Assembly (NCBI RefSeq): GCF_964204645.1
Contig: NC_134029.1
Location: 14,748,850 to 14,812,849, forward strand
DNA from: Tubulanus polymorphus
Lineage: Eukaryota > Nemertea > Palaeonemertea > Tubulaniformes > Tubulanidae
Length of the DNA stretch: 64,000 nt
Direction of reading: 5' to 3'
How positions within the stretch are numbered: the stretch's first letter is position 1; each line of letters begins with the position of its first letter. Below the pieces are notes generated by a model, which saw nothing but the letters and a program-made list of their open reading frames with translations, was not told where the DNA came from and ran no database searches. Below are positions 3,945-55,033 of the stretch, in pieces. The position numbers and the translations under genes are program-made.

Positions 3945-4705
3945 GTAAGTCAATTGTTAAGTCAAACGAAGTATCTGTAAAAGTCATATTGGTCATCTCA
4001 TATAATGTGTATAATGTTTGAATATTCTTTCAAGAATGTCAAAGATTAGTAAGTGTCTACATGAGGAATTTTGGATTAGTTCTCATTGTTTACATCGGGG
4101 AATACACTTTTGTTGCTATTTTCTCAATATTAAGGCTGGGAGTCCAATTTCAGTGCAATAGCAAGAATCTACAAATCAAATGAAATCTACAAGATGGCAT
4201 TTTGACAAACAAGAAGCCACTTTATTGCACACACGTCGCCTCCATTGTATGTCATGGGATGAACAAGTTTTTGGGGAAGTTTTAAACACACTTTGATGGA
4301 TTGACTCAGGTTCATAAATGCTCCTGTCCTCAACCCATCACTGCCCAGAATTTCGAATTCAATTATTTGCTGCAGTTTTCATACGCTTAGTATTATGTTC
4401 CTTTCCTAAATAAGGGGCACATTTTAATTAATTTACAATTTCATGATAAAGAAACTATAATTTCGGAAGAGTATCCAGATAGTTAAATAATAATAAGAAC
4501 GCAACTATCACAATCTTCATGATGATAATGAGTTTATTTACATGTTCAAACGTTTCGATCGATTTCGACTCATCTCTTCGAGTCCTTTTTAAGAAATGAC
4601 ATGAAAAGATACAAGCTATGTATAGTATAATGTTACTAATTACAGAGAATATCATGCAGGCGTGAAGTGGCCTAGTTTACAAAGTACAAATGGATTATAA
4701 ACATA

Positions 4706-5110
4706 TCAAAATACGTTCAGTAAAAATGAGACACCATGAGTAGAAAGTTGTTTGTTAATACTTGGTTTTTTGGATTTTATATATAATGCCTCTTTGATGG
4801 TGATTTCAAAGTCATTTTTTCCAGAATCAACGATTGAAAAGTTGTTTTTTAAAGAAAAATTTGATGCACAATTTTTACATGATGTTAAATGTTCCTTAAT
4901 TGCTGAAGGCGAAGTTCCATGCTCCTTTACCCTTGTGGCCAAATGTCGCATTGTTTTACCAATGTATGTGTTATTTGCATCACGCAAACATTTGAATTTA
5001 TAAATAACATTGGCCAACAAGGGTGAAGGAGTATGGGACTTGAGTGAAAAGTAGTTCCTAATTTTGAAAGAAATATCCATGTTGCATATTAGTTGCATAA
5101 GCAGTAGTTG
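4706..5110 (-). pseudogene. Penelope-like GIY-YIG endonuclease domain, inverted left copy
   Basis: The minus-strand reading frame carries the Penelope C-terminal endonuclease domain: NVIYKFKC, NTYIGKTMRHLATRV and EHGTSPSAIKEHLTSC, and the catalytic-glutamate region ITIKEALYI ending near KPSIN. A 17-base stretch present in the right copy (near 5358-5374) is missing here. The frame 5' of about 5085 is not homologous to the other copy. It lacks all reverse transcriptase motifs and so is an inactive 5'-truncated fragment. Over the shared part it is nearly identical to the right copy, which suggests insertion as one event. Confidence 0.88.
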
Positions 5111-5123
5111 GTTTGTTTTCTCA

Positions 5124-5739
5124 CAAGAAATTGATTTCCTAAAAAACGTTTTCCACAAAAATGGCTACCCGCAGGATTTGTTTAATTCGTGTCTTAGAAG
5201 ATCTTTTGAATAGCAAATGTAGTGATGATACTCCCGCTAGTATGGTCAGGGAAGATAAGGTCGAAACATTTTTTTTCGTTCCTTACATAGGCCTCCCTTC
5301 GATTATATTTGGCAGAAAACTCAAGAGTCAATTCAAACAATATTACAACATGGATATTCGTATTGTCTTTACTTCTTTCAAAATTAGGAACTACTTTTCA
5401 CTCAAGTCCCATACTCCTTCACCCTTGTTGGCCAATGTTATTTATAAATTCAAATGTTTGCGTGATGCAAATAACACATACATTGGTAAAACAATGCGAC
5501 ATTTGGCCACAAGGGTAAAGGAGCATGGAACTTCGCCTTCAGCAATTAAGGAACATTTAACATCATGTAAAAATTGTGCATCAAATTTTTCTTTAAAAAA
5601 CAACTTTTCAATCGTTGATTCTGGAAAAAATGACTTTGAAATCACCATCAAAGAGGCATTATATATAAAATCCAAAAAACCAAGTATTAACAAACAACTT
5701 TCTACACATGGTGTCTCATTTTTACTGAACGTATTTTGA
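5124..5739 (+). pseudogene. Penelope-like element C-terminal RT linker plus GIY-YIG domain, right copy
   Basis: Translation from 5124 reads EIDFLKNVFHKNGYPQDLF, the usual linker after the Penelope reverse transcriptase. That frame stops near 5210, and the remainder (KVETFFFVPYIGLPSIIFG..., then NVIYKFKC, TYIGKT, EALYIKSKKPSIN, stop at 5739) continues in the next frame. A one-base indel close to 5205-5215 therefore breaks the gene. The GIY-YIG nuclease part (about residues 95-190 of the open section) looks intact. The 3' tail contains CGAAGAGATGAG and GATCGAAACG, a sequence of the type derived from hammerhead ribozymes in this element class. Confidence 0.88.
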
Positions 5740-6016
5740 TATGTTTATAATCCATTTGTACTTTGTAAACTAGGCCACTTCACGCCTGCATGATATTCTC
5801 TGTTATTAGTAACAGTATACTATACATAGTTTGTATCTTGTCATGTCATTTCTTGAAAAGGACTCGAAGAGATGAGTCGAAATCGATCGAAACGTTTGAA
5901 CATGTAAATAAACTCATTATCATCATGAAGATTGTGATAGTTGCGTTCTTATTATTATAAAGAAACTACTCTGAAACAGATTCTGGGTAATGAGTTTTAA
6001 AGATTTCTGTTAATAG

Positions 6017-6157
6017 GAAAACCCATGACAGTTAGCTGTGCATACAGTGGTAGGGTTGCTGTAGCTTACAGGATGGGTGATGTCCGTAGTAGTTCTGATG
6101 ATCCTGACAATAAATTTGTGAATTTGTATGTTGCAATTCATGAATGCGAATCAACAG
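6017..6157 (+). CDS. DMXL2: DMXL exon, WD40 region
   Basis: The 141-bp exon lies between acceptor TTAATAG and donor CAACAG|GTATGT, phase 1 in and phase 1 out. With the preceding G it reads GKPMTVSCAYSGRVAVAYR..., ending VAIHECESTG. The CAYSGR/AVAY and ECESTG strings are characteristic of the DMXL propeller. Confidence 0.93.
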
Positions 6158-6499
6158 GTATGTAAAATTGAAGAAACCCCACAATTTGAAGAAACAAAAC
6201 CTCAATAGGGCATGTCCCAGCAGATTCACAAATATGAAGTTGCTTGGAGGACAGGTCATTGGATCATATTTTACCTTCAATAAAAATGGTTACATGATGT
6301 TCATAAAAACAAACAGGCTAAACATCTTAAAATCATTTCAAAAATCATCATTTAACTACCAAATAGTAGGGAGATAAGCCATTTCTAATTTACTTGCCAT
6401 GAATCTTAGAGAACTGTGCTGGTGTACGGGTTTCTGATTGAGCGTTGATATTCTTATCACAGTAGCATGTCATGCCTCGGGTGACAAAGCAACTGGTTT

Positions 6500-7000
6500 C
6501 CGGAGCTAAGGCCCTTTGACTGTGCAACTGACCATATATTAGTATGTATCATCTATAGCAGTATCGTCTACTGTTTAAATTACGGGCTTTATTTTAAGAT
6601 TTAAGATTGTATTTCAAGATGGATTTCTATGAAATCTTTAGTTCATTTAGTTTTTGGAAGGAATATTTTTATTTGCACTACAGAAAATATTATTGACAAT
6701 TATGCAAAGTCCAGGAAGAATAGCTTTTTCTCAAATTTGATGGATGACCTTTATATGCTAATTAGTCATTCGCTCGTACTGCAAATTCAATCAAATTTTA
6801 TTCTACCAAAAATACCAAATCCAATTCAATAATACTTTTTTGAACAAATAAAACATTGAATCCAATTCAATTTTGCTTTATTGGACAACTTTCAGAAAAT
6901 CCAATTCAATGGTGTACTCGCAGTGCTACTGTGGCAATCGAGGATTCCACTTATGGCAGGCGTGTTCAATTTTCTTCTACATTTCAATTTAATCTGAATG
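6500..7000 (+). repeat. Dispersed repeat family B copy
   Basis: Contains AAGGCCCTTTGACTGTGCAACTGA, then GTATCGTCTACTGTTT, ATTTCTATGAAATCTTTAG, a TTTTTATTTGCACTACAGAAAA block, a TAGCTTTTTCTCAAAT block and GACCTTTATATGCTAATTAG. The same ordered blocks occur at 25189-26063, 61043-61330 and 63021-63345, with a partial copy at 50395-50450. The short reading frame at 6629 falls inside the repeat and is not a gene. Confidence 0.75.
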
Positions 7001-10233: not shown

Positions 10234-11547
10234 GAAACAAATATGGTGTTTTAAAGCAAAAGCATTTGATTCAGCTTGACTGGGTGCCAATGGAAGATGG
10301 TTCTCATATTCTGACAGTTGGAGTAGGATCTAAAGTCATGATGTATGGACAAGTTTCGAAAGAAATTGCCCATGCTATGCAAAAAGGCCAACAAACCCAG
10401 TCACGACCCATGCTCCAGAAAAGTAAATCAATGACGGTTAAACATGCATCAGAAGAGATTTGTTGGATGAAACTTCGTTGTATTGACTTACAGACAGCTG
10501 ATGGTTTACCCCCATTACCAATGCATGTCTCATGGGTCAGAGATGGTATATTGGTAGTTGGAATGGATAATGAAATGCATGTTTATTCTCAATGGAGAAG
10601 TCATTCTGAAGGCTATGAAACGATTAGTGACAATGAGGAAAATGATAAGCGCAGTTTGACAGATTTCAATTTGTTGTCATCGTCAAACGCCACATTAACT
10701 ATGGCTAAAAAGAATTCCAGTTTCATTGGTTTAAAAACTTCTGCTTCATCATCTAGCTTATTGATGCTTGGCATTACTGAAACATCAATGAAAAGGAAGG
10801 ATAAAGATAGAGAGGGTATAAAAAAGTCTTCTTCGAATAGCGATAGTACAACCAGTCTTGGTTGGATTCAGGACTGTGGACTCTTTGAGGCCGCTAGAAT
10901 TGCAAACCCCGTTTTGCCCCAATATCATCCTAAACAACTATTAGAACTATTGAATTTCGGTAAAATTCGTCGCGTGAAGGGGATTCTTGCACATTTGGTC
11001 CGATGTATTTCTGGAAGTGGTGCAATAACGAAATCATCAAATCAGAACAAAACAAGGCGTATGTCATTTAGTGCTAAGTTCAGCCCAACTGACGCACAAC
11101 TGACGGAAGAAGTGCTAGATTATATTGAAATAAATTCCATTCCACCACTTCCTATTTATGCAATTCTCAGTGCCGATAATGATAGTTTCTGTCAGCAAGA
11201 TATCAAGGCAGCATCACCCTATTACCATTCAACAATGGCTATTGGAACAGACTATTCATCTTTGTTCAATACTCCTCATGACTATTCAGATGCATACCAG
11301 GACAGAGGAGATACTGAGGATGATAGTGTATTTGAAAAAACACATAAACTACTTTCATCTAGTTCTATGAATCCAAACTATTTTGGACCAGCGCAGGCAC
11401 ATCTATTATCTCGTCACTTGACGCACATGCAGCTTCCTGGTTTATCAAGTTTGGATCAGATGTATTTGCTTGCTCTTGCTGATACAGTTTCCAACACAAA
11501 ATCAGACTTTAGTGATCATTTTGCTCCAGACAGAGCTGTAAAAAATG
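10234..11547 (+). CDS. DMXL2: DMXL exon, end of propeller and start of Rav1-type domain
   Basis: This 1,314-bp exon is the largest coding block, phase 1 in and phase 1 out (AAAAATG|GTAAGA). It encodes GNKYGVLKQKHLIQLDWVP, EDGSHILTVGVGSKVMMYG and HVSWVRDGILVVGMDNEMH, the last WD40 blades. A Ser-rich, basic linker of about 100 residues follows, then LFEAARIANPVLPQYHPKQL and GKIRRVKGILAHLVRC, a signature of the Rav1p C-terminal domain of RAVE/DMXL proteins. Near the end come AQAHLLSRHLTHMQLPGLSS and LALADTVSN. The frame closes 30 bases beyond the donor, in intron sequence. Confidence 0.95.
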
Positions 11548-11699
11548 GTAAGACTTCCAGATTTCCTGATGATATTTAATGATTTAGCAGGTTTGACTAC
11601 TTGTTTTGTAAGTAGTAGTCAGACCTTGATAAATCACTTTTATGAGGCCCATTTATATCTAGCATTCACTTTTCGTCAATTTGTTCTGATGGCTGTCCA

Positions 11700-28737: not shown

Positions 28738-28743
28738 AAGATA
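28738..28743. repeat. Target-site duplication AAGATA, left
   Basis: AAGATA abuts the left terminus of the palindromic element and is repeated at 34652-34657 directly after its right terminus. Six-base duplications are characteristic of Polinton/Maverick integration. Confidence 0.85.
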
Positions 28744-29096
28744 AGTAATAGGGGTAATGGGCTTTCAAATCAAAGGTCGAACGGTCGAGCTCATAAAAAA
28801 TTTAAAATATGAAAATAATAACAATTTCTACTTGAATTAGTCGCGAAACTCATAAAAAATGAAAAATAATTCTCACACACTCAAATTTATTTTTCATTTT
28901 TGCTCGCTAGAAAAAAGTGCGAGTAAAGTGTGAGTGAAATAAATTCGAGTGTGTGAGAATTATTTTTCATTTTTTATGAGTTTCACTCCTAATTCACTCC
29001 TTATTCAAGTAGAAATTGTTATTATTTTCATATTTTTCATTTTTTATGAGCTCGACCATTCAACCTTTAACCTGAAAGCCCATTACCCCTATTACT
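28744..29096. repeat. Left terminal nested inverted repeat
   Basis: The left end is itself a foldback: it starts AGTAATAGGGGTAATGGGC at 28744 and ends GCCCATTACCCCTATTACT at 29096, with two mostly complementary halves of about 170 bp meeting near 28912-28926. The inner half is diverged and the outer half matches the far right end of the element exactly over its first 46 bases. Confidence 0.85.
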
Positions 29097-29216
29097 CTTA
29101 AAATATTCATATACATGAATAAAATATATATGAATAACATATAAATTGATAGATTATTCAATATAAAAGTGTGAGTGAAATAATTCATATTTAAAACAGT
29201 GAATATTTATATTTGA

Positions 29217-29876
29217 ATGAGTTTTAATAAAAGTTTTGTTATTAAAATGAAGACAGAAGAAGAACCCAACTTTAAAATCGAAATAAAAGAAACCAATAAA
29301 TCATTTTCATTATTTAACATTAAAAATTATATTTCAGCAACAAATTTAGTGTCCGCAAGGTATTATAAAATTGATGACATTGCTATGATTAATCAAATAT
29401 CATCAAATGAAACATATTTAATTACTGAACTAATTGATACTTTTGATAATGGAATAAAAAATCCTAAAATATTCAATACAGTTTTAAATTTTAAAGGAAC
29501 TTTAGATGAAAACATAATTAATATTCTTAAAACTCCTTTCAATGAAAGAAATGATGATATAATACTTACAAAAGATTACAATGATTTGATTAACTTAAGA
29601 ATTGAAAAAAGACAATTATATTATTTCAATTTTGATAATAAACAAATTATCTATAATGAAAATTCATCAAATATTGGAATTCAATGTGAATTAGATAATG
29701 AAAAATCATATAAAGATATTGCAGTTCAATGTAATTTAGATGATGAATTTAGAAAATTCAATCCTAATGAAAAAGTGCATTGTTATTGCGGAGGTAAATA
29801 CTTAAAATCACATAAATCAAAGCATTATGAAACAAACATAAAAACTGGCGTAAAGAGTAACAATTCTACGTTATAA
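29217..29876 (+). CDS. Element protein 1, zinc-finger protein, left copy (C-terminus frameshifted)
   Basis: A 219-residue frame from ATG 29217. The first 207 residues differ from the right-arm copy at only a few positions (for example Ile/Thr 39, Ala/Thr 56, Thr/Ser 118, Gly/Ala 163) and one Glu in the EEE run. The protein is rich in Lys, Asn, Ile, Asp and Glu, with no signal peptide or membrane segment. It contains two similar QCxLD segments (about residues 165 and 181) and CYCGGKYLKSHKSKH near the end. A 4-base deletion (ATTA) relative to the right arm shifts the last residues, removing the final zinc-finger histidine. Function is unknown. Similar C-terminal CxCGGKY...H...H fingers occur in proteins of large DNA viruses and virophage/Polinton-like elements (family knowledge, not checked here). 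Confidence 0.75.
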   Translation: MSFNKSFVIKMKTEEEPNFKIEIKETNKSFSLFNIKNYISATNLVSARYYKIDDIAMINQISSNETYLITELIDTFDNGIKNPKIFNTVLNFKGTLDENIINILKTPFNERNDDIILTKDYNDLINLRIEKRQLYYFNFDNKQIIYNENSSNIGIQCELDNEKSYKDIAVQCNLDDEFRKFNPNEKVHCYCGGKYLKSHKSKHYETNIKTGVKSNNSTL

Positions 29877-29912
29877 TTATTGAATTGAGTTAAATGATTT
29901 AAATATCTAATA

Positions 29913-30398
29913 GACTGTTGAAATGATAAATTGTTTGACAGTTGAAATGATAAATTGTTTGACAGTTGAAATGATAAATTGTTTGACAGTTGAAATGATA
30001 AATTGTTTGACAGTTGAAATGATAAATTGTTTGACAGCTGAAATGATAAATTGTTCCACAGTTGAAATGTTAAATTGTTCGACGGTTGAAATGATAAATT
30101 TTTTGACGGTTGAAATGATAAATTGTTTGACGGTTGAAATGGTAAATTGTTTGACGGTTGAAATGTTAAATTGTTTGACAGTTGAAATGTTAAATTGTTT
30201 GACAGTTGAAATGTTAAATTGTTTGACGGTTGAAATGATAAATTGTTTGACGGTTGAAATGATAAATTGTTTGACGGTTGAAATGATAAATTGTTTGACA
30301 GTTGAAATGATAAATTGTTTGGCAGTTGAAATGATAAATTGTTTGACAGTTGAAATGATAAATTGTTTGACAGTTGAAATGTTAAATTGTTTGGCTGT
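29913..30398. repeat. 24-bp minisatellite, left arm, about 20 copies
   Basis: A unit of the form GTTGAAATGATAAATTGTTT plus GACA repeats head to tail, with few variants (CAGTTG/CGGTTG, ATGATAA/ATGTTAA, TGTTCGAC). Because 24 is divisible by three and this frame has no stop, it is open as an 8-residue repeat MINCLTVE from 29923 to 30417. Whether this is translated is unknown. The right arm has about 44 copies. Confidence 0.92.
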
Positions 30399-30417
30399 AA
30401 ATATAATTGTTATTTGA
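29923..30417 (+). CDS. Open repeat frame MINCLTVE, left copy (164 residues)
   Basis: The frame consists of about 20 repeats of M(I/L)NC(L/S)(T/A)VE, ending MLNCLAVNIIVI. Each repeat has one cysteine and one acidic residue, so a translated product would be a cysteine-periodic fibrous protein. The opposite frame is open as well in the right arm (LSFQLSNN repeats), so openness may simply reflect a stop-free 24-mer. Codon use cannot discriminate. It may be coding, but I rate that as uncertain. Confidence 0.35.
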   Translation: MINCLTVEMINCLTVEMINCLTVEMINCLTVEMINCLTAEMINCSTVEMLNCSTVEMINFLTVEMINCLTVEMVNCLTVEMLNCLTVEMLNCLTVEMLNCLTVEMINCLTVEMINCLTVEMINCLTVEMINCLAVEMINCLTVEMINCLTVEMLNCLAVNIIVI

Positions 30418-30517
30418 TTTAATCATTTAAAAGTTTAATATTTTTAAAATGATTATGAAATATTTAATTAAAAACTAGCAAATAATTTATAAACTGTTTA
30501 ATTTTTCTCTTAAATAA

Positions 30518-30736
30518 ATGGATGGTTTCATCCCAACTGGGAAAAGTGATTTGAAACATTATTTAGTAGCAGGCGGATTAATATTGGCTGCGCTTATCTT
30601 TTATTATGAAAATATCAGTAAGGATTTGATAAATGAAAATATAAAATTGAGCAAGAAATTAAAGAAGTTAAATGGAAACAATCACAGAAATAAAAAGAAT
30701 AAAAAAGTTAATGATTTAAATGATTTGGAGGATTAA
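30518..30736 (+). CDS. Element protein 2, 72-residue single-pass membrane protein, left copy
   Basis: ATG at 30518, TAA at 30734-30736. The protein starts MDGFIPTGKSDLKHYLVAGG; residues 15-31 (YLVAGGLILAALIFYY) form a transmembrane segment, followed by a highly basic, Asn/Lys-rich tail and an acidic end (DLNDLED). Its sequence is identical to the right-arm copy, although neighbouring non-coding sequence has diverged, which suggests purifying selection or recent gene conversion. No family is recognised. Small membrane proteins with basic tails occur among Polinton/adintovirus accessory genes, but that is an analogy only. Confidence 0.7.
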   Translation: MDGFIPTGKSDLKHYLVAGGLILAALIFYYENISKDLINENIKLSKKLKKLNGNNHRNKKNKKVNDLNDLED

Positions 30737-30783
30737 AACAACATCTTTTAATTTAATTTATTCAATATATTTTGTCTATAAAA

Positions 30784-31089
30784 ATGAGTGAAAATAAGGT
30801 ATTAGAAATATTACATCTAATATATAAAAATCAACAGAATATTAAATCAATTATTATGATTTCAGGTTTATTTTCATTCTCAGTTTATACTATAAAACAG
30901 TTGTTAGAATTCTATGATTGCTGTAAAATTAGATACACTGAATTAATAGAAAATATGAATTATATTTCAGATAGATTGAATAATATTAAATGCTGTGAAA
31001 TATGCAATAAAAGATATAAAAATAAAAAATCATTAAGGAATCACATGTATCTTCACGAACTTGATGAAAAATTATATGAATCAAAATAA
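30784..31089 (+). CDS. Element protein 3, membrane plus C2H2 zinc finger, left copy
   Basis: The ATG at 30784 is preferred (MSENKVLEIL...); an in-frame TTG 12 bases upstream is not needed. The product is 101 residues. Residues 22-37 (SIIMISGLFSFSVYTI) are hydrophobic and probably membrane-spanning. A helical, charged stretch follows, then a classical C2H2 finger: C71, C74, H87, H91 in CEICNKRYKNKKSLRNHMYL. It is identical in both arms. The combination of a short membrane segment and one C2H2 finger is unusual. No function is assigned. Confidence 0.7.
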   Translation: MSENKVLEILHLIYKNQQNIKSIIMISGLFSFSVYTIKQLLEFYDCCKIRYTELIENMNYISDRLNNIKCCEICNKRYKNKKSLRNHMYLHELDEKLYESK

Positions 31090-31480
31090 GAAATCGACTG
31101 TTAAATTAGCTGAAAATATAAAATATATTAGTTGAAATGTATGAAAATGAGTAAATTATATTTATGTTAAAAAAGGAGGGTTGAGGTATCAATGTATTAA
31201 ATACGTATTAAATACGTACCAAATACGTATTAATGGTATTTAATACATTAATATGTATTTAATACATATTATGTTTTATTTCTGAAAATGAAGTAACAGA
31301 AGTAATTTATGTTTTAATTCATTCAAGTATGATATTTTAAATTCTTTACATTTGACTACGATAATACGAGAGTGATATTGGTTAGTTGGCTTATTCAATA
31401 AGAGAAACAATGAAATAATACAAGAGTGATACTAACAGTTAAAGTTATTGAATTTCTTGTTAAATCTATTTGAATTCTAG
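31090..31480. other. Left inner non-coding arm of the palindrome
   Basis: Contains a run of ATACGTATTAAATACGTA-like palindromic hexamers (31190-31275) and no gene. About 40 bases near 31235-31290 are not matched in the right arm. Confidence 0.7.
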
Positions 31481-31521
31481 TCAATTCTTGTTAACCAATA
31501 GCGCCAATAGAAATCAAAAAG
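31481..31521. other. 41-bp asymmetric centre of the palindrome
   Basis: The only part of the element not repeated in the opposite arm. It contains AACCAATAGCGCCAATAGAA. It is the turn-around point expected for a snap-back genome. Confidence 0.85.
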
Positions 31522-31871
31522 CTAGAATTCAAATAGATTTAACAAGAAATTCAATAACTTTAACTGTTAGTATCACTCTTGTATTATTTCATTGTTTCTC
31601 TTATTGAATAAGCCAACTAACTAATATCACTCTCGTATTATCCTAGTCAAATGTAAAGAATTTAAAATATCATACTTGAATGAATTAAAACATAAATTAC
31701 TTCTGAAGTATTACTTTTAAATACCATTAATACGTATTTGGTACGTATTTAATACGTATTTAATACATTGATACCTCAACCCTCCTTTTTTAACATAAAT
31801 ATAATTTACTCATTTTCATACATTTCAACTAATATATTTTTGTATTTTCAGCTAATTAAACAGTCGATTTC
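31522..31871. other. Right inner non-coding arm of the palindrome
   Basis: Inverted copy of 31090-31480 with scattered substitutions and one deletion of about 40 bases. Confidence 0.7.
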
Positions 31872-32177
31872 TTATTTTGATTCATATAATTTTTCATCAA
31901 GTTCGTGAAGATACATGTGATTCCTTAATGATTTTTTATTTTTATATCTTTTATTGCATATTTCACAGCATTTAATATTATTCAATCTATCTGAAATATA
32001 ATTCATATTTTCTATTAATTCAGTGTATCTAATTTTACAGCAATCATAGAATTCTAACAACTGTTTTATAGTATAAACTGAGAATGAAAATAAACCTGAA
32101 ATCATAATAATTGATTTAATATTCTGTTGATTTTTATATATTAGATGTAATATTTCTAATACCTTATTTTCACTCAT
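31872..32177 (-). CDS. Element protein 3, membrane plus C2H2 zinc finger, right copy
   Basis: Mirror copy of the 30784-31089 gene, encoding the same 101 residues without any change, including the C71/C74/H87/H91 finger. The gene reads toward the centre of the element. Confidence 0.7.
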   Translation of the reverse strand: MSENKVLEILHLIYKNQQNIKSIIMISGLFSFSVYTIKQLLEFYDCCKIRYTELIENMNYISDRLNNIKCCEICNKRYKNKKSLRNHMYLHELDEKLYESK

Positions 32178-32224
32178 TTTTATAGACAAAATATATTGAA
32201 TAAATTAAATTAAAAGATGTTGTT

Positions 32225-32443
32225 TTAATCCTCCAAATCATTTAAATCATTAACTTTTTTATTCTTTTTATTTCTGTGATTGTTTCCATTTAACTTCTTT
32301 AATTTCTTGCTCAATTTTATATTTTCATTTATCAAATCCTTACTGATATTTTCATAATAAAAGATAAGCGCAGCCAATATTAATCCGCCTGCTACTAAAT
32401 AATGTTTCAAATCACTTTTCCCAGTTGGGATGAAACCATCCAT
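32225..32443 (-). CDS. Element protein 2, 72-residue membrane protein, right copy
   Basis: Mirror copy of 30518-30736, identical in protein sequence, 47 bases from the neighbouring protein 3 frame. The short spacing of proteins 2 and 3 in both arms suggests they could be expressed from one transcript. Confidence 0.7.
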   Translation of the reverse strand: MDGFIPTGKSDLKHYLVAGGLILAALIFYYENISKDLINENIKLSKKLKKLNGNNHRNKKNKKVNDLNDLED

Positions 32444-32543
32444 TTATTTAAGAGAAAAATTAAACAGTTTATTAAATATTTGCTAGTTTTTAATTAAATA
32501 TTTCATAATCATTTTAAAAATATTAAACTTTTAAATGATTAAA

Positions 32544-33614
32544 TCAAATAACAATTAAATTTACAGCCAAACAATTTAACATTTCAACTGTCAAACAATT
32601 TATCATTTCAACCGTCAAACAATTTATCATTTCAACCGTCAAACAATTTATCATTTCAACCGTCAAACAATTTATCATTTCAACCGTCAAACAATTTAAC
32701 ATTTCATCCGTCAAACAATTTATCATTTCAACTGTCAAACAATTTATCATTTCAACTGTCAAACAATTTATCATTTCAACTGTCAAACAATTTAACATTT
32801 CAACTGTCAAACAATTTATCATTTCAACTGTCAAACAATTTATCATTTCAACAGTCGAACAATTTATCATTTCAACTGTCAAACAATTTATCATTTCAAC
32901 TGTCAAACAATTTATCATTTCAACTGTCAAACAATTTATTATTTCAACCGTCAAACAATTTAACATTTCAACCGTCAAACAATTTGTCATTTCAACCGTC
33001 AAACAATTTATCATTTCAACCGTCAAACAATTTATCATTTCAACTGTCAAACAATTTAACATTTCAACTGTCAAACAATTTATCATTTCAACTGTCAAAA
33101 AATTTATCATTTCAACAGTCGAACAATTTATCATTTCAACAGTCGAACAATTTATCATTTCAACTGCCATACAATTTATCATTTCAACTGTCGAACAATT
33201 TATCATTTCAACTGTCGAACAATTTATCATTTCAACTGTCAGACAATTTATCATTTCAACTGTCGAACAATTTATCTTTTCAACTGTCAAACAATTTATC
33301 ATTTCAACAGTCGAACAATTTATCATTTCAACAGTCGAACAATTTATCATTTCAACTGCCATACAATTTATCATTTCAACTGTCGAACAATTTATCATTT
33401 CAACTGTCGAACAATTTATCATTTCAACTGTCAGACAATTTATCATTTCAACTGTCGAACAATTTATCTTTTCAACTGTCAAACAATTTATCATTTCAAC
33501 TGTCAAACAATTTATCATTTCAACTGTCAAACAATTTATCATTTCAACTGTCAAACAATTTATCATTTCAACTGTCAAACAATTCATCATTTCAACTGTC
33601 AAACAATTTATCAT
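32544..33614 (-). CDS. Open repeat frame MINCLTVE, right copy (356 residues)
   Basis: About 44 repeats of the 8-residue unit, with the variants MINCSTVE, MINCMAVE and KINCSTVE arranged in a repeated block of eight units (192 bp). The frame is uninterrupted over more than 1 kb, which would be expected either from selection or from array homogenisation. Translation is unproven. Confidence 0.35.
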   Translation of the reverse strand: MINCLTVEMMNCLTVEMINCLTVEMINCLTVEMINCLTVEMINCLTVEKINCSTVEMINCLTVEMINCSTVEMINCSTVEMINCMAVEMINCSTVEMINCSTVEMINCLTVEKINCSTVEMINCLTVEMINCSTVEMINCSTVEMINCMAVEMINCSTVEMINCSTVEMINFLTVEMINCLTVEMLNCLTVEMINCLTVEMINCLTVEMTNCLTVEMLNCLTVEIINCLTVEMINCLTVEMINCLTVEMINCSTVEMINCLTVEMINCLTVEMLNCLTVEMINCLTVEMINCLTVEMINCLTDEMLNCLTVEMINCLTVEMINCLTVEMINCLTVEMINCLTVEMLNCLAVNLIVI

Positions 33615-33624
33615 TTCAACAGTC
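32563..33624. repeat. 24-bp minisatellite, right arm, about 44 copies with 192-bp higher-order unit
   Basis: Same unit as the left array, on the opposite strand, but more than twice as long. Part of the array shows a higher-order duplication: the variant unit AACTGCCATACAATTTATC occurs at about 33163 and again 192 bases later. The copy-number difference between arms is the main reason the right arm is longer. Confidence 0.92.
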
Positions 33625-33676
33625 TATTAGATATTTAAATCATTTAACTCAATTCAATAATTATAACGTAGAATTG

Positions 33677-34327
33677 TTACTCTTTACGCCAGTTTTTATG
33701 TTTAATTGTTTCATAATGCTTTGATTTATGTGATTTTAAGTATTTACCTCCGCAATAACAATGCACTTTTTCATTAGGATTGAATTTTCTAAATTCATCA
33801 TCTAAATTACATTGAACTGCAATATCTTTATATGATTTTTCATTATCTAATTCACATTGAATTGCAATATTTGATGAATTTTCATTATAGATAATTTGTT
33901 TATTATCAAAATTGAAATAATATAATTGTCTTTTTTCAATTCTTAAGTTAATCAAATCATTGTAATCTTTTGAAAGTATTATATCATCATTTCTTTCATT
34001 GAAAGGAGTTTTAAGAATATTAATTATGTTTTCATCTAAAGTTCCTTTAAAATTTAAAACTGTATTGAATATTTTAGGATTTTTTATTCCATTATCAAAA
34101 GTATCAATTAGTTCAGTAATTAAATATGTTTCATTTGATGATATTTGATTAATCATAGTAATGTCATCAATTTTATAATACCTTGCGGACACTAAATTTG
34201 TTGCTGAAGTATAATTTTTAATGTTAAATAATGAAAATGATTTATTGGTTTCTTTTATTTCGATTTTAAAGTTGGGTTCTTCTTCTTCTGTCTTCATTTT
34301 AATAACAAAACTTTTATTAAAACTCAT
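33677..34327 (-). CDS. Element protein 1, zinc-finger protein, right copy (intact)
   Basis: A 216-residue frame with the complete C-terminal finger: C190, C192, H204 and H210, spacing C-x-C-x11-H-x5-H, followed by KNWRKE. Two similar QC(E/N)LD segments precede it (residues 167-171 and 182-186). The protein is otherwise soluble, acidic and basic in alternation, with no enzyme motif that I recognise. It starts about 120 bases from the terminal repeat and reads inward, as the left copy does. This copy is the better guide to the ancestral protein. Confidence 0.78.
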   Translation of the reverse strand: MSFNKSFVIKMKTEEEEPNFKIEIKETNKSFSLFNIKNYTSATNLVSARYYKIDDITMINQISSNETYLITELIDTFDNGIKNPKIFNTVLNFKGTLDENIINILKTPFNERNDDIILSKDYNDLINLRIEKRQLYYFNFDNKQIIYNENSSNIAIQCELDNEKSYKDIAVQCNLDDEFRKFNPNEKVHCYCGGKYLKSHKSKHYETIKHKNWRKE

Positions 34328-34447
34328 TCAAATATAAATATTCACTGTTTTAAATATGAATTATTTCACTCACACTTTTATATTGAATAATCTATCAATT
34401 TATATGTTATTCATATATATTTTATTCATGTATATGAATATTTTAAG

Positions 34448-34651
34448 AGTAATAGGGGTAATGGGCTTAATGTGCGAGTAAAGTGTGAGTGAAATAAATT
34501 CGAGTGTGTGAGAATTATTTTTCATTTTTTATGAGTTTCACTCCTAATTCACTCCTTATTCAAGTAGAAATTGTTATTATTTTCATATTTTTCATTTTTT
34601 ATGAGCTCGACCGTTCGACCTTTGATTTGAAAGCCCATTACCCCTATTACT
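34448..34651. repeat. Right terminal nested inverted repeat, shortened
   Basis: Begins AGTAATAGGGGTAATGGGC (34448) and ends GCCCATTACCCCTATTACT (34651), but only the first 20 or so bases of the first half remain, so it is 204 bp against 353 bp at the left. The deletion removes most of one hairpin strand. Confidence 0.82.
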
Positions 34652-34657
34652 AAGATA
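34652..34657. repeat. Target-site duplication AAGATA, right
   Basis: Directly follows the terminal CT of the element and matches 28738-28743. Confidence 0.85.
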
Positions 34658-41314: not shown

Positions 41315-42380
41315 GTTTGTCTGAACAAAATTGAAGATATCCAGTTAGCAATCGTTATTGCACGTTTGTATGAGAATGATTTGGAAGAAAGTATGCCAGC
41401 CAACTTAAGGCGTATTCTCAGAGAAGAGGTTCTTGGGTTCAATGTCAACGGTGAAACCAGTTCAAACAAAGCTAATACTGATCCATTCCTTCGCAGTATG
41501 TGCTTTTGGATGCTGAATGATTATCAAAATGCCTTAAGTACTCTTCTACATACTAACACGGGACAAAACTGCTTCCTCGAATCAGGCCACGAAGAGGAAA
41601 TTCAATCATATTCATCTCCAAATGTTTTCAATTTCTATGTTTATCTCAGATCGCACCCTTTACTTTTACGTCAGAATTTGGCTATGTCTGCTCAAGATAA
41701 GAAGAAACATGTGTTGTTATCTGGATTTACACAAGGAGGTCACTCATCATCTTTAGATCAACATGTTACTTATGTTGACAAAATCACTCCTCTTGAACGT
41801 AGATTGTACTTTACTACAGCCCATTCTCATTTCAAAGCTGGATGTCCAATGCTTGCATTGGAGGTGTTAACTAAATTACCTGATGTGATTTGTGTGGAAC
41901 CTACTGAGGTGATGAATAATACTTTGCTGAAATCGAACTCAAGTAATTTGATAACTTCTGGTATAATAACGGATACAATGCTTTCCAGTCAGCATGTGAA
42001 ATCAACCAGCAAAAGCAAGCCAGATCATGCACTTGATATTGACTGGGGCAAGACATCAACATCTATTCATTCAATGAATATTCAGCATGATACTATTAGC
42101 AGCAATATTGATATCGATGATGAATTAACAGATAGTGATAACAACTCTAAACCACACAGTTCGATTCCAGTGAAAAGTGTTGATATTATGGCACAGCAAT
42201 TAAAGTATATAGCATGTATGAAGATAGTCATGGAAGAAATGAGTACTTTAGCTACCGGTTTTGAAGTTGATGGAGGTCAATTGAGGTATCAACTGTATAT
42301 CTGGTTGGAGCGTGAAATGGAATGTCTCAATAACCTTTGCAATTTCATGCAGTTAGAAGAAATGTTTAAGACTGATTCAG
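41315..42380 (+). CDS. DMXL2: DMXL exon, end of Rav1 domain and variable region
   Basis: The 1,066-bp exon follows a 163-bp intron, phase 0 in and phase 1 out. It starts VCLNKIEDIQLAIVIARLYE, then DPFLRSMCFWMLNDYQNALS and a Ser/Asp-rich variable stretch, then MAQQLKYIACMKIVMEEMST, and ends near MFKTDS(G). The open frame runs 197 bases past the chosen donor TTCAG|GTAGGA and ends in a stop. Only this donor gives the correct phase to the downstream exon. Confidence 0.93.
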
Positions 42381-42540
42381 GTAGGAAACTGAAAACATTT
42401 TATGACCATATAGAATATTCAGAACTTGCTCCATTAACACATTGTTCTAGTTTAGATCATAAAAGATTTCATGCATTAATAATGCACAACCCATTAGTTC
42501 ATGGGTCGTATCAATTGGTTATTTATACATTTTCATGCAG

Positions 42541-43141
42541 ATTTCAAAACGGATTTCCTGGAAGAAAACTATGGTAATTCAAACACCAAATCCTCAAGTT
42601 GGGATAACACCCTCTCGAAACCATCTCTTCATGAAGTCATTCAAGCTGAGAAAATGGATTTGGAAGCTAAGTTGGATCGCATAGCACGTCGGAGATTGTG
42701 GTTAAAGGCAAACCAACAGGATTTACGAACTTTATTAAGCTATTGTAGCTTACAAGGTGCTGCCGGGGGAGGAATTGCATCAGTTCGAATGGAATTGATC
42801 CTCCTGTTACAGGAATTACAACAGGAAAAGACGCAACAGCAACTTCTATCACCACTTCCATTCCCTACAACTTTGCCGATGCTTTCAGCTAGTATTGCGC
42901 CCTCAAAAACAGTTATTGCTGATCCGATTCAACATTTGAAAAACTTAGCACATGATCTACTGAATTGTATCATTTTATTTGACAGCCCACCAGCTTGTGG
43001 AAAGTTAATGCAGCATGTATTTACTTTAAGAAATCTAAGTGCAGCATTATCAGCTTGTATTTACCAATCATTATGCGATAGTGACGACTTTGTTGTATCA
43101 TTAAGTGGAAAAGATGATGTTGGTATGGAAGGCTTTACTAG
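42541..43141 (+). CDS. DMXL2: DMXL exon, conserved C-terminal linker region
   Basis: The 601-bp exon follows a 160-bp intron (acceptor TTTCATGCAG), phase 1 in and phase 2 out (CTAG|GTAGGT). It encodes KLDRIARRRLWLKANQQDLR, TLLSYCSLQGAAGGGIASVR, MELILLLQELQQEKTQQQLL and SALSACIYQSLCDSDDFVV, all typical of the region between the Rav1 domain and the C-terminal WD repeats of DMXL1/2. Confidence 0.96.
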
Positions 43142-52804: not shown

Positions 52805-55033
52805 ATGAATTTAGAGGAAAATAATGTGTTCGATGGTAATTGTAGTTATTACCAAGTAGATTCATTGAACAATATACCAATTGGTTATAATTTTTCTCTG
52901 CTCCATGTAAATATGAGGAGTTGTAACAAAAATTTTGAGCATTTTTACACCGCTTACAAATCTTTCAATTGTAAGTTTGATATTATTGGCTTTTCCGAAA
53001 CGTGGACCTCCGATTTAGAAGATAATTCATCCATGTATAATATTGATGGTTTTACAAGTAAATTCCTAAGTAGAAAGTGCAAAGGAGGTGGAGGCGTTGC
53101 TCTATATATCAAGAATGATATTTCTTTTCATACTGATAACCAGTTAGATATACAATTTGACAGTTTTGAACACCTTTTTATTGAACTATCTAATAATGTA
53201 TGTATTGGAGTGGTATATAGGACAGGTAGTGGTTTGAACGATTTTAATAGAGATTTAGATTTACTGTTATCAAAACTCACTGAAAATAAGAGATATTTTA
53301 TCATGGGTGATTTTAATATTGATCTATCGCATTCATCTTCCCATTTACCTACTACTAAATTTGTTGACTCCATGATGTCAAATTCTCTTTTTCCCCTAAT
53401 TGATGTTCCTACTCGTGTTACTGATACTTCAGCAACTATTATTGACAATATATTTACAAATGCCTACCTTAATCACAATCTAAGTTCTGGTGCTATTATT
53501 TGGAACATAACAGATCATTTTCCGATCTTCACTTGTTTGAACTTATCTCAATTTGAACGAAATGCTAATTATAAAGCAAAACCCAAATATTTTTCTTATC
53601 GCGAAATAAATGCTAGAAATGTTAATATTTTTAGAAGGAAACTATTGATATCTGACTGGCATTGTATAACGTCCTTGACTGATGCATCAGTTGCATATTC
53701 AGAATTCTTTCGTATTTTTAAGAATTTATATGATGATTGTATACCTATTGTTAAAAAGAAATATTCTAAATTTAAAGCTGGTTCGCATTTATGGATGACT
53801 AGAGGATTGTTGAAATCACTGAAACATAAAGAACAATTATATAAACGTTATGTTACTCAACGAACTCAATCATCAAAAGCACGCTTCACCTCCTTCAGAA
53901 ACTTGTATAATAGGCTTATCATCCAAGCAAAAAGAAATCATTTTATTCATAAATTTGATCGAGCCGGTAATAACAGTAAATACACTTGGAAAGTTATAAA
54001 GGAATTACTAAATAGAAATTCTGATAAGAACATATATCCAGATGATTTTAAAATCAATAATAAACTAATCTCAGATCCTGATGTAATTGCCAAATCTTTC
54101 AATGTCTATTTCGTAAATGTTGGACCAAATCTAGCTAATTGTATTCCTAAGCAATCAGAAAGTTTTGAAAAATTCATGAATCCTCAGCTTGATCATAATT
54201 TATTTCTAAATCCAATTCTACCTCACGAAATAGAATTAATTGTCAGAAACTTTAAATTGAAAAATGATTGTGGTTTTGATGACATTAACCACAAAGTATT
54301 GAAAAGCGTAATTGATACTATTTCTAGTTCACTAGCGCATATTTTCAATCTTTGTTTTTCTGAAGGTACCTTCCCAGATGAGCTTAAAATAGCTCAAATT
54401 TTTCCATTGTATAAATCAGGGGATAAACAAATTGTTAGTAATTATCGTCCAATCTCTATACTTCCATGTATTTCTAAGATTCTAGAAAAACTACTACATA
54501 GCCGCTTAGTTAAATACCTCAAATTGCATGACGTTCTAACTAATTCTCAATTTGGATTTAGAGAGGGGTACTCAACTGCTATGGCAATTAATGTAATTAC
54601 ATCTGCTTTAATCAATAACTTGGATAACAACAAACACTCAATTGGTATTTACTTAGACCTTTCGCGAGCATTTGATACTTTAGATCATAAAATTCTCCTA
54701 GCTAGATTGAATAATTATGGCTTTCGCGGAGTTGTACTAAAATTATTTTCCAGCTATCTTGAAAACCGATTTCAAGTTGTGAAATTCAAAAATCATATTT
54801 CATCTCCGCAAAAGTTAACATGTGGAGTTCCGCAAGGTTCAATTTTAGGTCCTATACTTTTTCTTTTATATATTAATGACTGTATCAACAGTTCAAAATT
54901 ATTTCAGTTCATAATGTTTGCAGATGATACTAATGCCTTCATGTCTCACAAAGATTTAAAATCTCTAGAATTTCTGGTCAATAGGGAATTATCAAATTTA
55001 GATCATTATGATAGTATGATGAATTTGGAGTAG
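52805..55033 (+). CDS. LINE ORF2: endonuclease and reverse transcriptase, C-terminus missing
   Basis: A 742-residue open frame. The apurinic-type endonuclease (about 30-245) shows LLHVNMRSCNKN, IIGFSETWTSD, YFIMGDFNIDLSHSS and ITDHFPIFTCL with all usual catalytic residues (Asn, Glu, Asp-Asn and Asp-His). The reverse transcriptase shows NYRPISILPCISKILEKL, GIYLDLSRAFDTLDHKI, CGVPQGSILGPILFLLYIND and MFADDTNAF (catalytic Asp pair intact). The frame ends 34 residues after FADD in SNLDHYDSMMNLE, whereas related ORF2 proteins continue for about 150-200 residues. It is therefore truncated but otherwise free of stops, so the insertion is fairly young. Confidence 0.93.
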   Translation: MNLEENNVFDGNCSYYQVDSLNNIPIGYNFSLLHVNMRSCNKNFEHFYTAYKSFNCKFDIIGFSETWTSDLEDNSSMYNIDGFTSKFLSRKCKGGGGVALYIKNDISFHTDNQLDIQFDSFEHLFIELSNNVCIGVVYRTGSGLNDFNRDLDLLLSKLTENKRYFIMGDFNIDLSHSSSHLPTTKFVDSMMSNSLFPLIDVPTRVTDTSATIIDNIFTNAYLNHNLSSGAIIWNITDHFPIFTCLNLSQFERNANYKAKPKYFSYREINARNVNIFRRKLLISDWHCITSLTDASVAYSEFFRIFKNLYDDCIPIVKKKYSKFKAGSHLWMTRGLLKSLKHKEQLYKRYVTQRTQSSKARFTSFRNLYNRLIIQAKRNHFIHKFDRAGNNSKYTWKVIKELLNRNSDKNIYPDDFKINNKLISDPDVIAKSFNVYFVNVGPNLANCIPKQSESFEKFMNPQLDHNLFLNPILPHEIELIVRNFKLKNDCGFDDINHKVLKSVIDTISSSLAHIFNLCFSEGTFPDELKIAQIFPLYKSGDKQIVSNYRPISILPCISKILEKLLHSRLVKYLKLHDVLTNSQFGFREGYSTAMAINVITSALINNLDNNKHSIGIYLDLSRAFDTLDHKILLARLNNYGFRGVVLKLFSSYLENRFQVVKFKNHISSPQKLTCGVPQGSILGPILFLLYINDCINSSKLFQFIMFADDTNAFMSHKDLKSLEFLVNRELSNLDHYDSMMNLE

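Follow-up and report, generated by a model that had tools for sequence, protein, structure and literature searches.

Palindromic elements with Polinton ends in the genome of Tubulanus polymorphus: a probable family of Polinton satellites

A stretch of 64,000 nucleotides of the nemertean Tubulanus polymorphus genome (hereafter the window; contig NC_134029.1, C5:14748850-14812849 of a 268-Mb, 77-contig assembly) contains a palindromic element, named W, at window positions 28744-34651. W is an end segment of about 2.7 kb, comprising a terminus, a leader and three genes (g1, g2 and g3), doubled head to head with a short fold between the copies. Polinton terminal sequence stands at both outer ends, and the element was integrated with a 6-bp duplication of its target. 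We consider it likely that W is a non-autonomous palindromic satellite of Polintons, and it belongs to a family of related palindromes in the same genome. Polintons, or Mavericks, are defined with terminal inverted repeats of the form AG...CT (PMC11071308), and 6-bp duplications are described at intact copies (PMC8097293).

The first-pass annotation, made from the sequence of the window, had described a 5.9-kb palindrome with AAGATA repeats, AG/CT ends and the same gene cassette in both arms, and this description proved exact with a repeat finder and by direct reading (Table 1). Each arm is ordered from the outside inwards as terminus, AT-rich leader, g1, an array of 24-bp tandem repeats, g2 and g3, with all genes aimed at the fold. 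According to the repeat finder, the segments 29255-29835 and 33706-34286 are 99% alike and the segments 29913-31123 and 31838-33048 are 97% alike; pairs of this length and similarity (581-1211 bp, 97-99%) lie far above chance, and the remaining pairs reported for W are mostly the 24-bp array matched against itself. Alignment of the arms without the arrays showed mismatches at 4 of 782 and 13 of 1029 sites, with a further 13 and 54 columns holding gaps. The difference in arm length is mostly that of the unequal arrays, partly offset by the right terminus, which is about 150 bp shorter than the left one (204 versus 353 bp). Two features are new relative to the first-pass annotation, namely that the left terminus is itself a palindrome of about 350 bp and that W has a family. 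As a side observation, the reading frame of the array is open in both arms, and the predicted frame would encode a repeated MINCLTVE.

The terminal inverted repeats of W begin with AG and end with CT, and are of a type common to L047, a PolB-bearing Polinton end elsewhere in the genome (contigs and loci are numbered here with C and L, respectively). Exact 6-bp duplications were found beside AG...CT ends in 13 of 15 both-ended elements, W included (Table 1). The Polinton-type termini and 6-bp duplications proposed at first for W alone are a property of most of these elements, and the same termini occur on PolB-bearing Polintons of this genome. With up to two mismatches, the terminal 19-mer matched the genome 855 times in forward and 852 times in reverse orientation, against 1 and 1 for a control; the 100 listed sites are mostly palindromic ends, several of them paired at 16-19 kb. 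Flip-flopping of terminal hairpins in the style of rolling-hairpin replication was considered and rejected. All 40 scored termini (of 1494 candidates) favored one orientation (90-100% versus 80-84%), and the outer half of the terminus was outermost at both ends in W, L023 and C1:14063817, with no flip seen.

W was first taken for a lone, unusual derivative, but the genome holds many such elements. Because only the best candidates were scored, the genome match lists give lower bounds. For g1, the best 150 of 680 candidates were scored and listed; among them, 29 neighboring pairs lie less than 7 kb apart, of which 27 are convergent, one divergent and one tandem, and the convergent pairs are spread over 10 contigs. 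Two more convergent pairs are spaced at 18.5 and 19.3 kb, the latter being a long Polinton with g1 in both terminal repeats. Besides W, we read ten palindromes (L021-L030) and five other g1 loci, comprising four both-ended elements (L031, L035/L036, L037 and L039) and a single-ended one (L033). L026 is a 5.94-kb palindrome with a self-complementarity of 99.7%, while L021, L027 and L030 (5.5-6.7 kb) are palindromic from end to end at 98-99%. Interruptions or asymmetry mark the palindromes of L023, L024, L025, L028 and L029. Identity between arms ranges from 91% in L023 to 99.8% in L022, where it extends across 2.3 kb. In a maximum-likelihood tree of 31 g1 copies, the two arms were closest relatives in 11 of 11 palindromes; three arm pairs were identical, and support for the pairing was modest in L029 and L030. 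Lesions confined to one arm have been retained: array lengths are unequal in W, L023, L029 and L037 each have one shortened arm, and the g1 frame is shortened in a single arm of L028 and of L029.

Three further observations concern g1 loci. The convergent pair at C2:17704733-17708906 scores the same as the pair at C14:177811-181984, on a short contig, and because of the equal scores the assembly may contain one element twice, perhaps as an unmerged haplotype. Three tandem g1-like copies with a spacing of 2744 bp occur at C10:6058618, 6061362 and 6064106. In the 11.1-kb palindrome-related element with the duplication cgcatg, an 899-amino-acid frame (L035:6333-9032) matches DUF1280 (E = 2e-22) and seems to be a mobile element that has entered the satellite.

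The best Pfam match of g3 was a C2H2 zinc finger (E = 1.9e-4, under the curated cut-off). No convincing match to g1 or g2 was found in Pfam, PHROGs or NCBIfam, the best E values being 0.03 (Pfam) and 0.008 (PHROGs) for g1 and 0.035 (Pfam) for g2. None of 446 candidates was a protein relative of g1 at E ≤ 1, no phage record matched g1, and a pattern scan of IMG/VR for g1 found none. The structure model of g1 was unusable, with a mean predicted local distance difference test score (pLDDT) of 30.7. Using one copy per element from the palindromes and their relatives, with copies containing stops excluded, the ratio of nonsynonymous to synonymous divergence (dN/dS) was 0.35 for g1, 0.14 for g2 and 0.29 for g3, at silent divergences of 0.08, 0.41 and 0.15, respectively. 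For palindromes only, the ratios were 0.42 (n = 9 elements), 0.13 (n = 10) and 0.29 (n = 9). These values indicate that purifying selection acts on genes 1-3. Within an element the arms are equal, while between elements divergence has proceeded under selection at the protein level. As the genes appear to be under purifying selection and the family is large, W-type palindromes look like maintained satellites, and the term "defective genome" used for W at first pass is not supported.

The fold of W can be located within a Polinton. L046 (C2:15021100-15025600), whose PolB lies 12.9 kb from g4, a gene of 108 amino acids, carries the array end, g2, g3 and the centre in single copy, 1.26 kb upstream of the PolB start. 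Colinearity of L046 with the left arm of W covers the inner 1.2 kb of that arm, at 92% identity, and runs through the entire 41-bp spacer; the comparison is with this inner part of the arm. W reverses at base 1226 of L046, taken as the parent, and runs back to base 1185. Base 1226 is situated within a hairpin, at the single mismatch that joins a 16-bp outer stem and a 24-bp inner stem. The 151-nucleotide hairpin stretch, folded as DNA, reached -39.8 kcal/mol compared with -9.6 kcal/mol for shuffled sequences (z = -11.9; none of 200 shuffles was as low). The axis of L026 lies in the loop of the same hairpin, where L030 shows a local axis in addition to its main one, 5 bp away. This geometry is what would be left by a strand folding back at the hairpin. 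Fold points in other elements lie at 659 and 712/543 (L025) and in the array/330 (L024). The hairpin loop is common to L023, L026, L028, L029, L030, L035, L037 and L046. L021, L022, L027 and L028 have pieces of a longer centre, and W, L024 and L025 carry neither centre type. W fits the snap-back form, in which one end and the nearby genes are mirrored with a short fold, the parental end being covered for the inner 1.2 kb. The proposal that each arm is a Polinton terminus with its nearest genes was supported for the part of the arm that lies beside PolB in L046, and not by L047, a PolB-bearing end without genes 1-3.

A PolB profile search of the genome gave 1341 candidates, of which 91 were scored, and 111 rows. 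For g4 there were 1452 candidates, and since the 150 listed copies are 94-100% identical, Polintons of this genome were probably active recently. Pairing 90 PolB rows with these 150 g4 matches yielded 51 pairs within 25 kb; 48 of them (48 different PolB rows and 48 g4) share one geometry at 10.5-20.5 kb, and three are arranged otherwise. The helper PolB is presumably protein-primed, given its polymerase family. L047 has a related terminus (a 267-bp palindrome) and leader followed by PolB in interrupted frames, with a DNA_pol_B_2 match (E = 7.7e-11) and no intein at the DTD motif. Against solved structures, the PolB piece of L047 matched PRDM9 zinc fingers only, while Pfam does detect the polymerase domain; a PolB piece had no match in IMG/VR. 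An A32-type packaging ATPase is encoded in L043, the left end of the Polinton at C1:14063817-14085649 (Pox_A32, E = 3e-13). In L042, a Polinton on C6, PolB (4464-6838) is split at the DTD motif by an intein (TIGR01445, E = 8e-8, over the cut-off; LAGLIDADG_3, E = 9e-4, and Intein_splicing, E = 0.006, both below it). Inteins in Polinton PolB are already reported (PMC11071308). Many PolB frames of about 1687 amino acids in the genome profile listing were noted, like that of L042, as carrying an intein with a LAGLIDADG-like domain at the DTD motif.

Polinton replication is thought to be protein-primed, a stage that is hard to observe. In the mechanism that we propose, the PolB of a helper Polinton would copy W extrachromosomally by protein priming. 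The displaced strand, or a strand reversing in the hairpin near the fold, would be self-complementary and snap back with one complete origin, and copying of the snapped-back hairpin would produce an inverted dimer. Each cycle would equalize the arms, hence their near-identity at integration, and a helper integrase would insert W, since both ends would bear an origin and an integration signal. The lineage would have started when the PolB-side end of a Polinton snapped back once or a few times; the palindromic state would then be passed on, with later central or one-arm deletions. That this state is probably inherited, with arms re-equalized, is preferred over a fresh snap-back each time because the elements read share two recurring types of centre. 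More tentatively, the satellite may form a stable lineage whose genome is a single arm with a protein-primed end and a hairpin end, which is turned into an inverted dimer in each cycle, the dimer being the form that integrates. Another possibility is that double-stranded RNA from the convergent arms acts against the helper.

Of the alternatives, it is rather unlikely that full-length Polintons gave off each palindrome anew, as an independent defective snap-back genome with the genes as passengers. Such an origin would account for arms that are sisters within each element and for fold points that vary among W, L024, L025 and L026, but the shared hairpin loop and the longer-centre pieces recur across elements, selection on the genes persists between palindromes, and genes 1-3 are missing from the PolB-bearing end L047. 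Because the centre motifs are shared, several of the fold points that differ could well have come from deletions within one or two centres that were inherited. Sister arms are equally expected if palindromes of a single origin were equalized by chromosomal gene conversion after integration, as in Y-chromosome palindromes, and arm equality would then be uninformative on replication. The survival of the one-arm lesions described above makes this improbable, and arm identities of 91-99.8% are as expected if equalizing ends at integration. Equalization before integration is needed in our proposal because chromosomal conversion, judged by these persisting lesions, appears weak.

The long inverted repeats of W with their internal tandem arrays also resemble foldback transposons of the FB or Galileo kind, in which internally repeated inverted repeats grow by recombination with no replication fold-back. 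Foldback elements, however, have target duplications of 7-9 bp, whereas the termini and 6-bp duplications seen here accompany PolB-bearing elements; in addition, three genes are present in both arms, the arms are equal within elements, and the fold lies within a hairpin. We therefore regard a foldback origin as very improbable. A Pfam scan of four frames of W found no transposase. Palindromes are known to arise in some library steps, and an assembly artefact or palindromic chimeric reads were accordingly weighed. An artefact would mirror the flanks, but mirrored 300-bp flanks were found in none of 14 elements tested, the target duplications in 13 of the 15 both-ended elements span two unlike flanks, and the 27 convergent g1 pairs are distributed over the 10 contigs. 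Because of the exact duplications and unmirrored flanks, a library artefact and a chromosomal inverted duplication are both strongly contradicted, and the chance of the former is negligible.

Several results weigh against a satellite that derives from a Polinton end and is maintained by helpers. L026 and L029 have no matching duplication, the left ends of both being decayed. In L046 the outer part of the hairpin is itself mirrored over about 50 bp, and the Polinton at C1:14063817-14085649 carries g1-g2-g3-centre-g3-g2-part of g1 ahead of PolB. Because both keep mirrored sequence, the cassette-bearing Polintons may have derived their cassette from palindromes and not the reverse. Selection on genes 1-3 could predate the palindromes and have acted in full-length Polintons, and the absence of these genes from L047 is a further difficulty. 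If the opposite Polinton end formed palindromes as well, a mirrored 200-amino-acid gene was predicted at C8:7067583-7071860, and it was absent among the 150 listed matches of 1333 candidates. As for enzymes, no PolB was found among the frames of W, including four scanned with Pfam, although helpers possess it; no retroviral-type integrase was found in the frames of W, nor was one seen in any helper, helper interiors lying outside the sequence read. With that predicted gene absent from the list and one convergent g4 pair in the 150 listed matches, palindromes formed from the opposite Polinton end are unsupported.

Compared with Polintons (Polintoviricetes), W shares the AG...CT repeats, the 6-bp duplication and the terminus and leader of the PolB elements of this genome. 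It differs in being one third as large and mirror-symmetric, in having three genes of its own, and in that no PolB, integrase, protease, packaging ATPase or capsid gene was found in it (Pfam on the four frames for the last two). With the cis-acting termini of Polintons present and their enzymes apparently absent, W is best described as non-autonomous. Adenovirus and other protein-primed linear DNAs form symmetric defective genomes in which one terminus is duplicated in inverted orientation; these resemble W in the inverted duplicated terminus and the protein-primed polymerase, and none is known to us that persists in integrated form as a family whose genes are conserved. In adeno-associated virus, snapback genomes of symmetric and asymmetric form likewise consist of a genome end with nearby genes, are self-complementary and replicate with a helper; they come from virions of a hairpin-primed parvovirus, whereas the W family consists of chromosomal insertions with Polinton ends and conserved genes of their own (PMC8235507). 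The foldback elements Tetris and Galileo share very long inverted repeats and internal repeats with W, but Galileo is grouped with P elements and the ends of W are those of PolB-bearing elements (PMC4079207, PMC3573991). No report of palindromic Polinton derivatives was found among the titles and abstract openings listed from the open-access literature. The snap-back kind is known from virology; what is new, as far as searched, is its occurrence as a large family that is integrated, bears genes and has Polinton ends. Integrated mirror-image genomes would be a chromosomal record of the protein-primed stage, in which fold points, hairpins and arm equalizing are readable, and the W family may expose copying errors of protein-primed DNA elements in chromosomes. 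If the satellites are indeed maintained with their own genes, Polintons host a helper-dependent parasite within an animal genome. The convergent arms are a testable candidate source of silencing RNA.

Table 1. Features of W (window positions) and 6-bp target duplications of the family
Feature	Position	Strand	Remark
Left target-site duplication	28738-28743	.	AAGATA
Left arm	28744-31480		2737 bp
Left terminus	28744-29096	+	palindrome of about 350 bp in itself; starts AGTAATAGGGGTAATGGGC; related terminus on PolB-bearing Polinton end L047
g1, left arm	29217-29876	+	219 amino acids; Cys/His finger-like C-terminus by eye
24-bp tandem array, left arm	29913-30407	+	about 20 copies (repeat finder)
g2, left arm	30518-30736	+	72 amino acids; hydrophobic stretch by eye
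g3, left arm	30784-31089	+	101 amino acids; weak C2H2 zinc-finger match
Spacer at fold point	31481-31521	.	41 bp; found uninterrupted in Polinton L046
Right arm	31522-34651		3130 bp
g3, right arm	31872-32177	-	
g2, right arm	32225-32443	-	
24-bp tandem array, right arm	32563-33630	-	about 44 copies (repeat finder)
g1, right arm	33677-34327	-	216 amino acids
Right terminus	34448-34651	-	most of the inner half of the terminal palindrome gone
Right target-site duplication	34652-34657	.	AAGATA
6-bp duplications			W aagata, L021 ttcaac, L022 cctact, L023 gagacc, L024 atcgac
6-bp duplications			L025 tactag, L027 accggt, L028 gacatc, L030 cctatg
6-bp duplications			L031 gatgtt, L035/L036 cgcatg, L037 gccggg, L039 cctact

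W most likely lies in an intron of a DmX-like (rabconnectin-3) gene, because exon-like DmX-like frames on its two sides share a strand. These are a frame with a Pfam match to Rav1p_C at 10266-11579 and a frame at 41366-42577, which was recognized by its homologues and had no Pfam match. At least 187 proteins matched a DmX-like exon; among the 120 listed were two from insects, with 48-55% identity across 43-45% of the exon. Elsewhere in the window, two similar frames stand head to head at 4706-5739, the second matching GIY-YIG (E = 5e-5), and the frame of a non-LTR (long terminal repeat) retrotransposon at 52805-55033 contains both an endonuclease and a reverse transcriptase.

Some other arrangements of Polinton sequence were observed in the genome. 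At C1:19200720-19210257, the PolB of L047 is followed less than 4 kb further on by a separate PolB frame (C1:19208917), so that two Polinton pieces adjoin. Three tandem g4 copies at C8:10034098, 10038973 and 10043851, with a spacing of about 4.9 kb, may reflect part of a Polinton repeated in tandem. At C7:13852750-13855454 and C4:12355614-12359713, Polinton left-end genes about 2-3 kb apart point away from each other, as if the termini abut.

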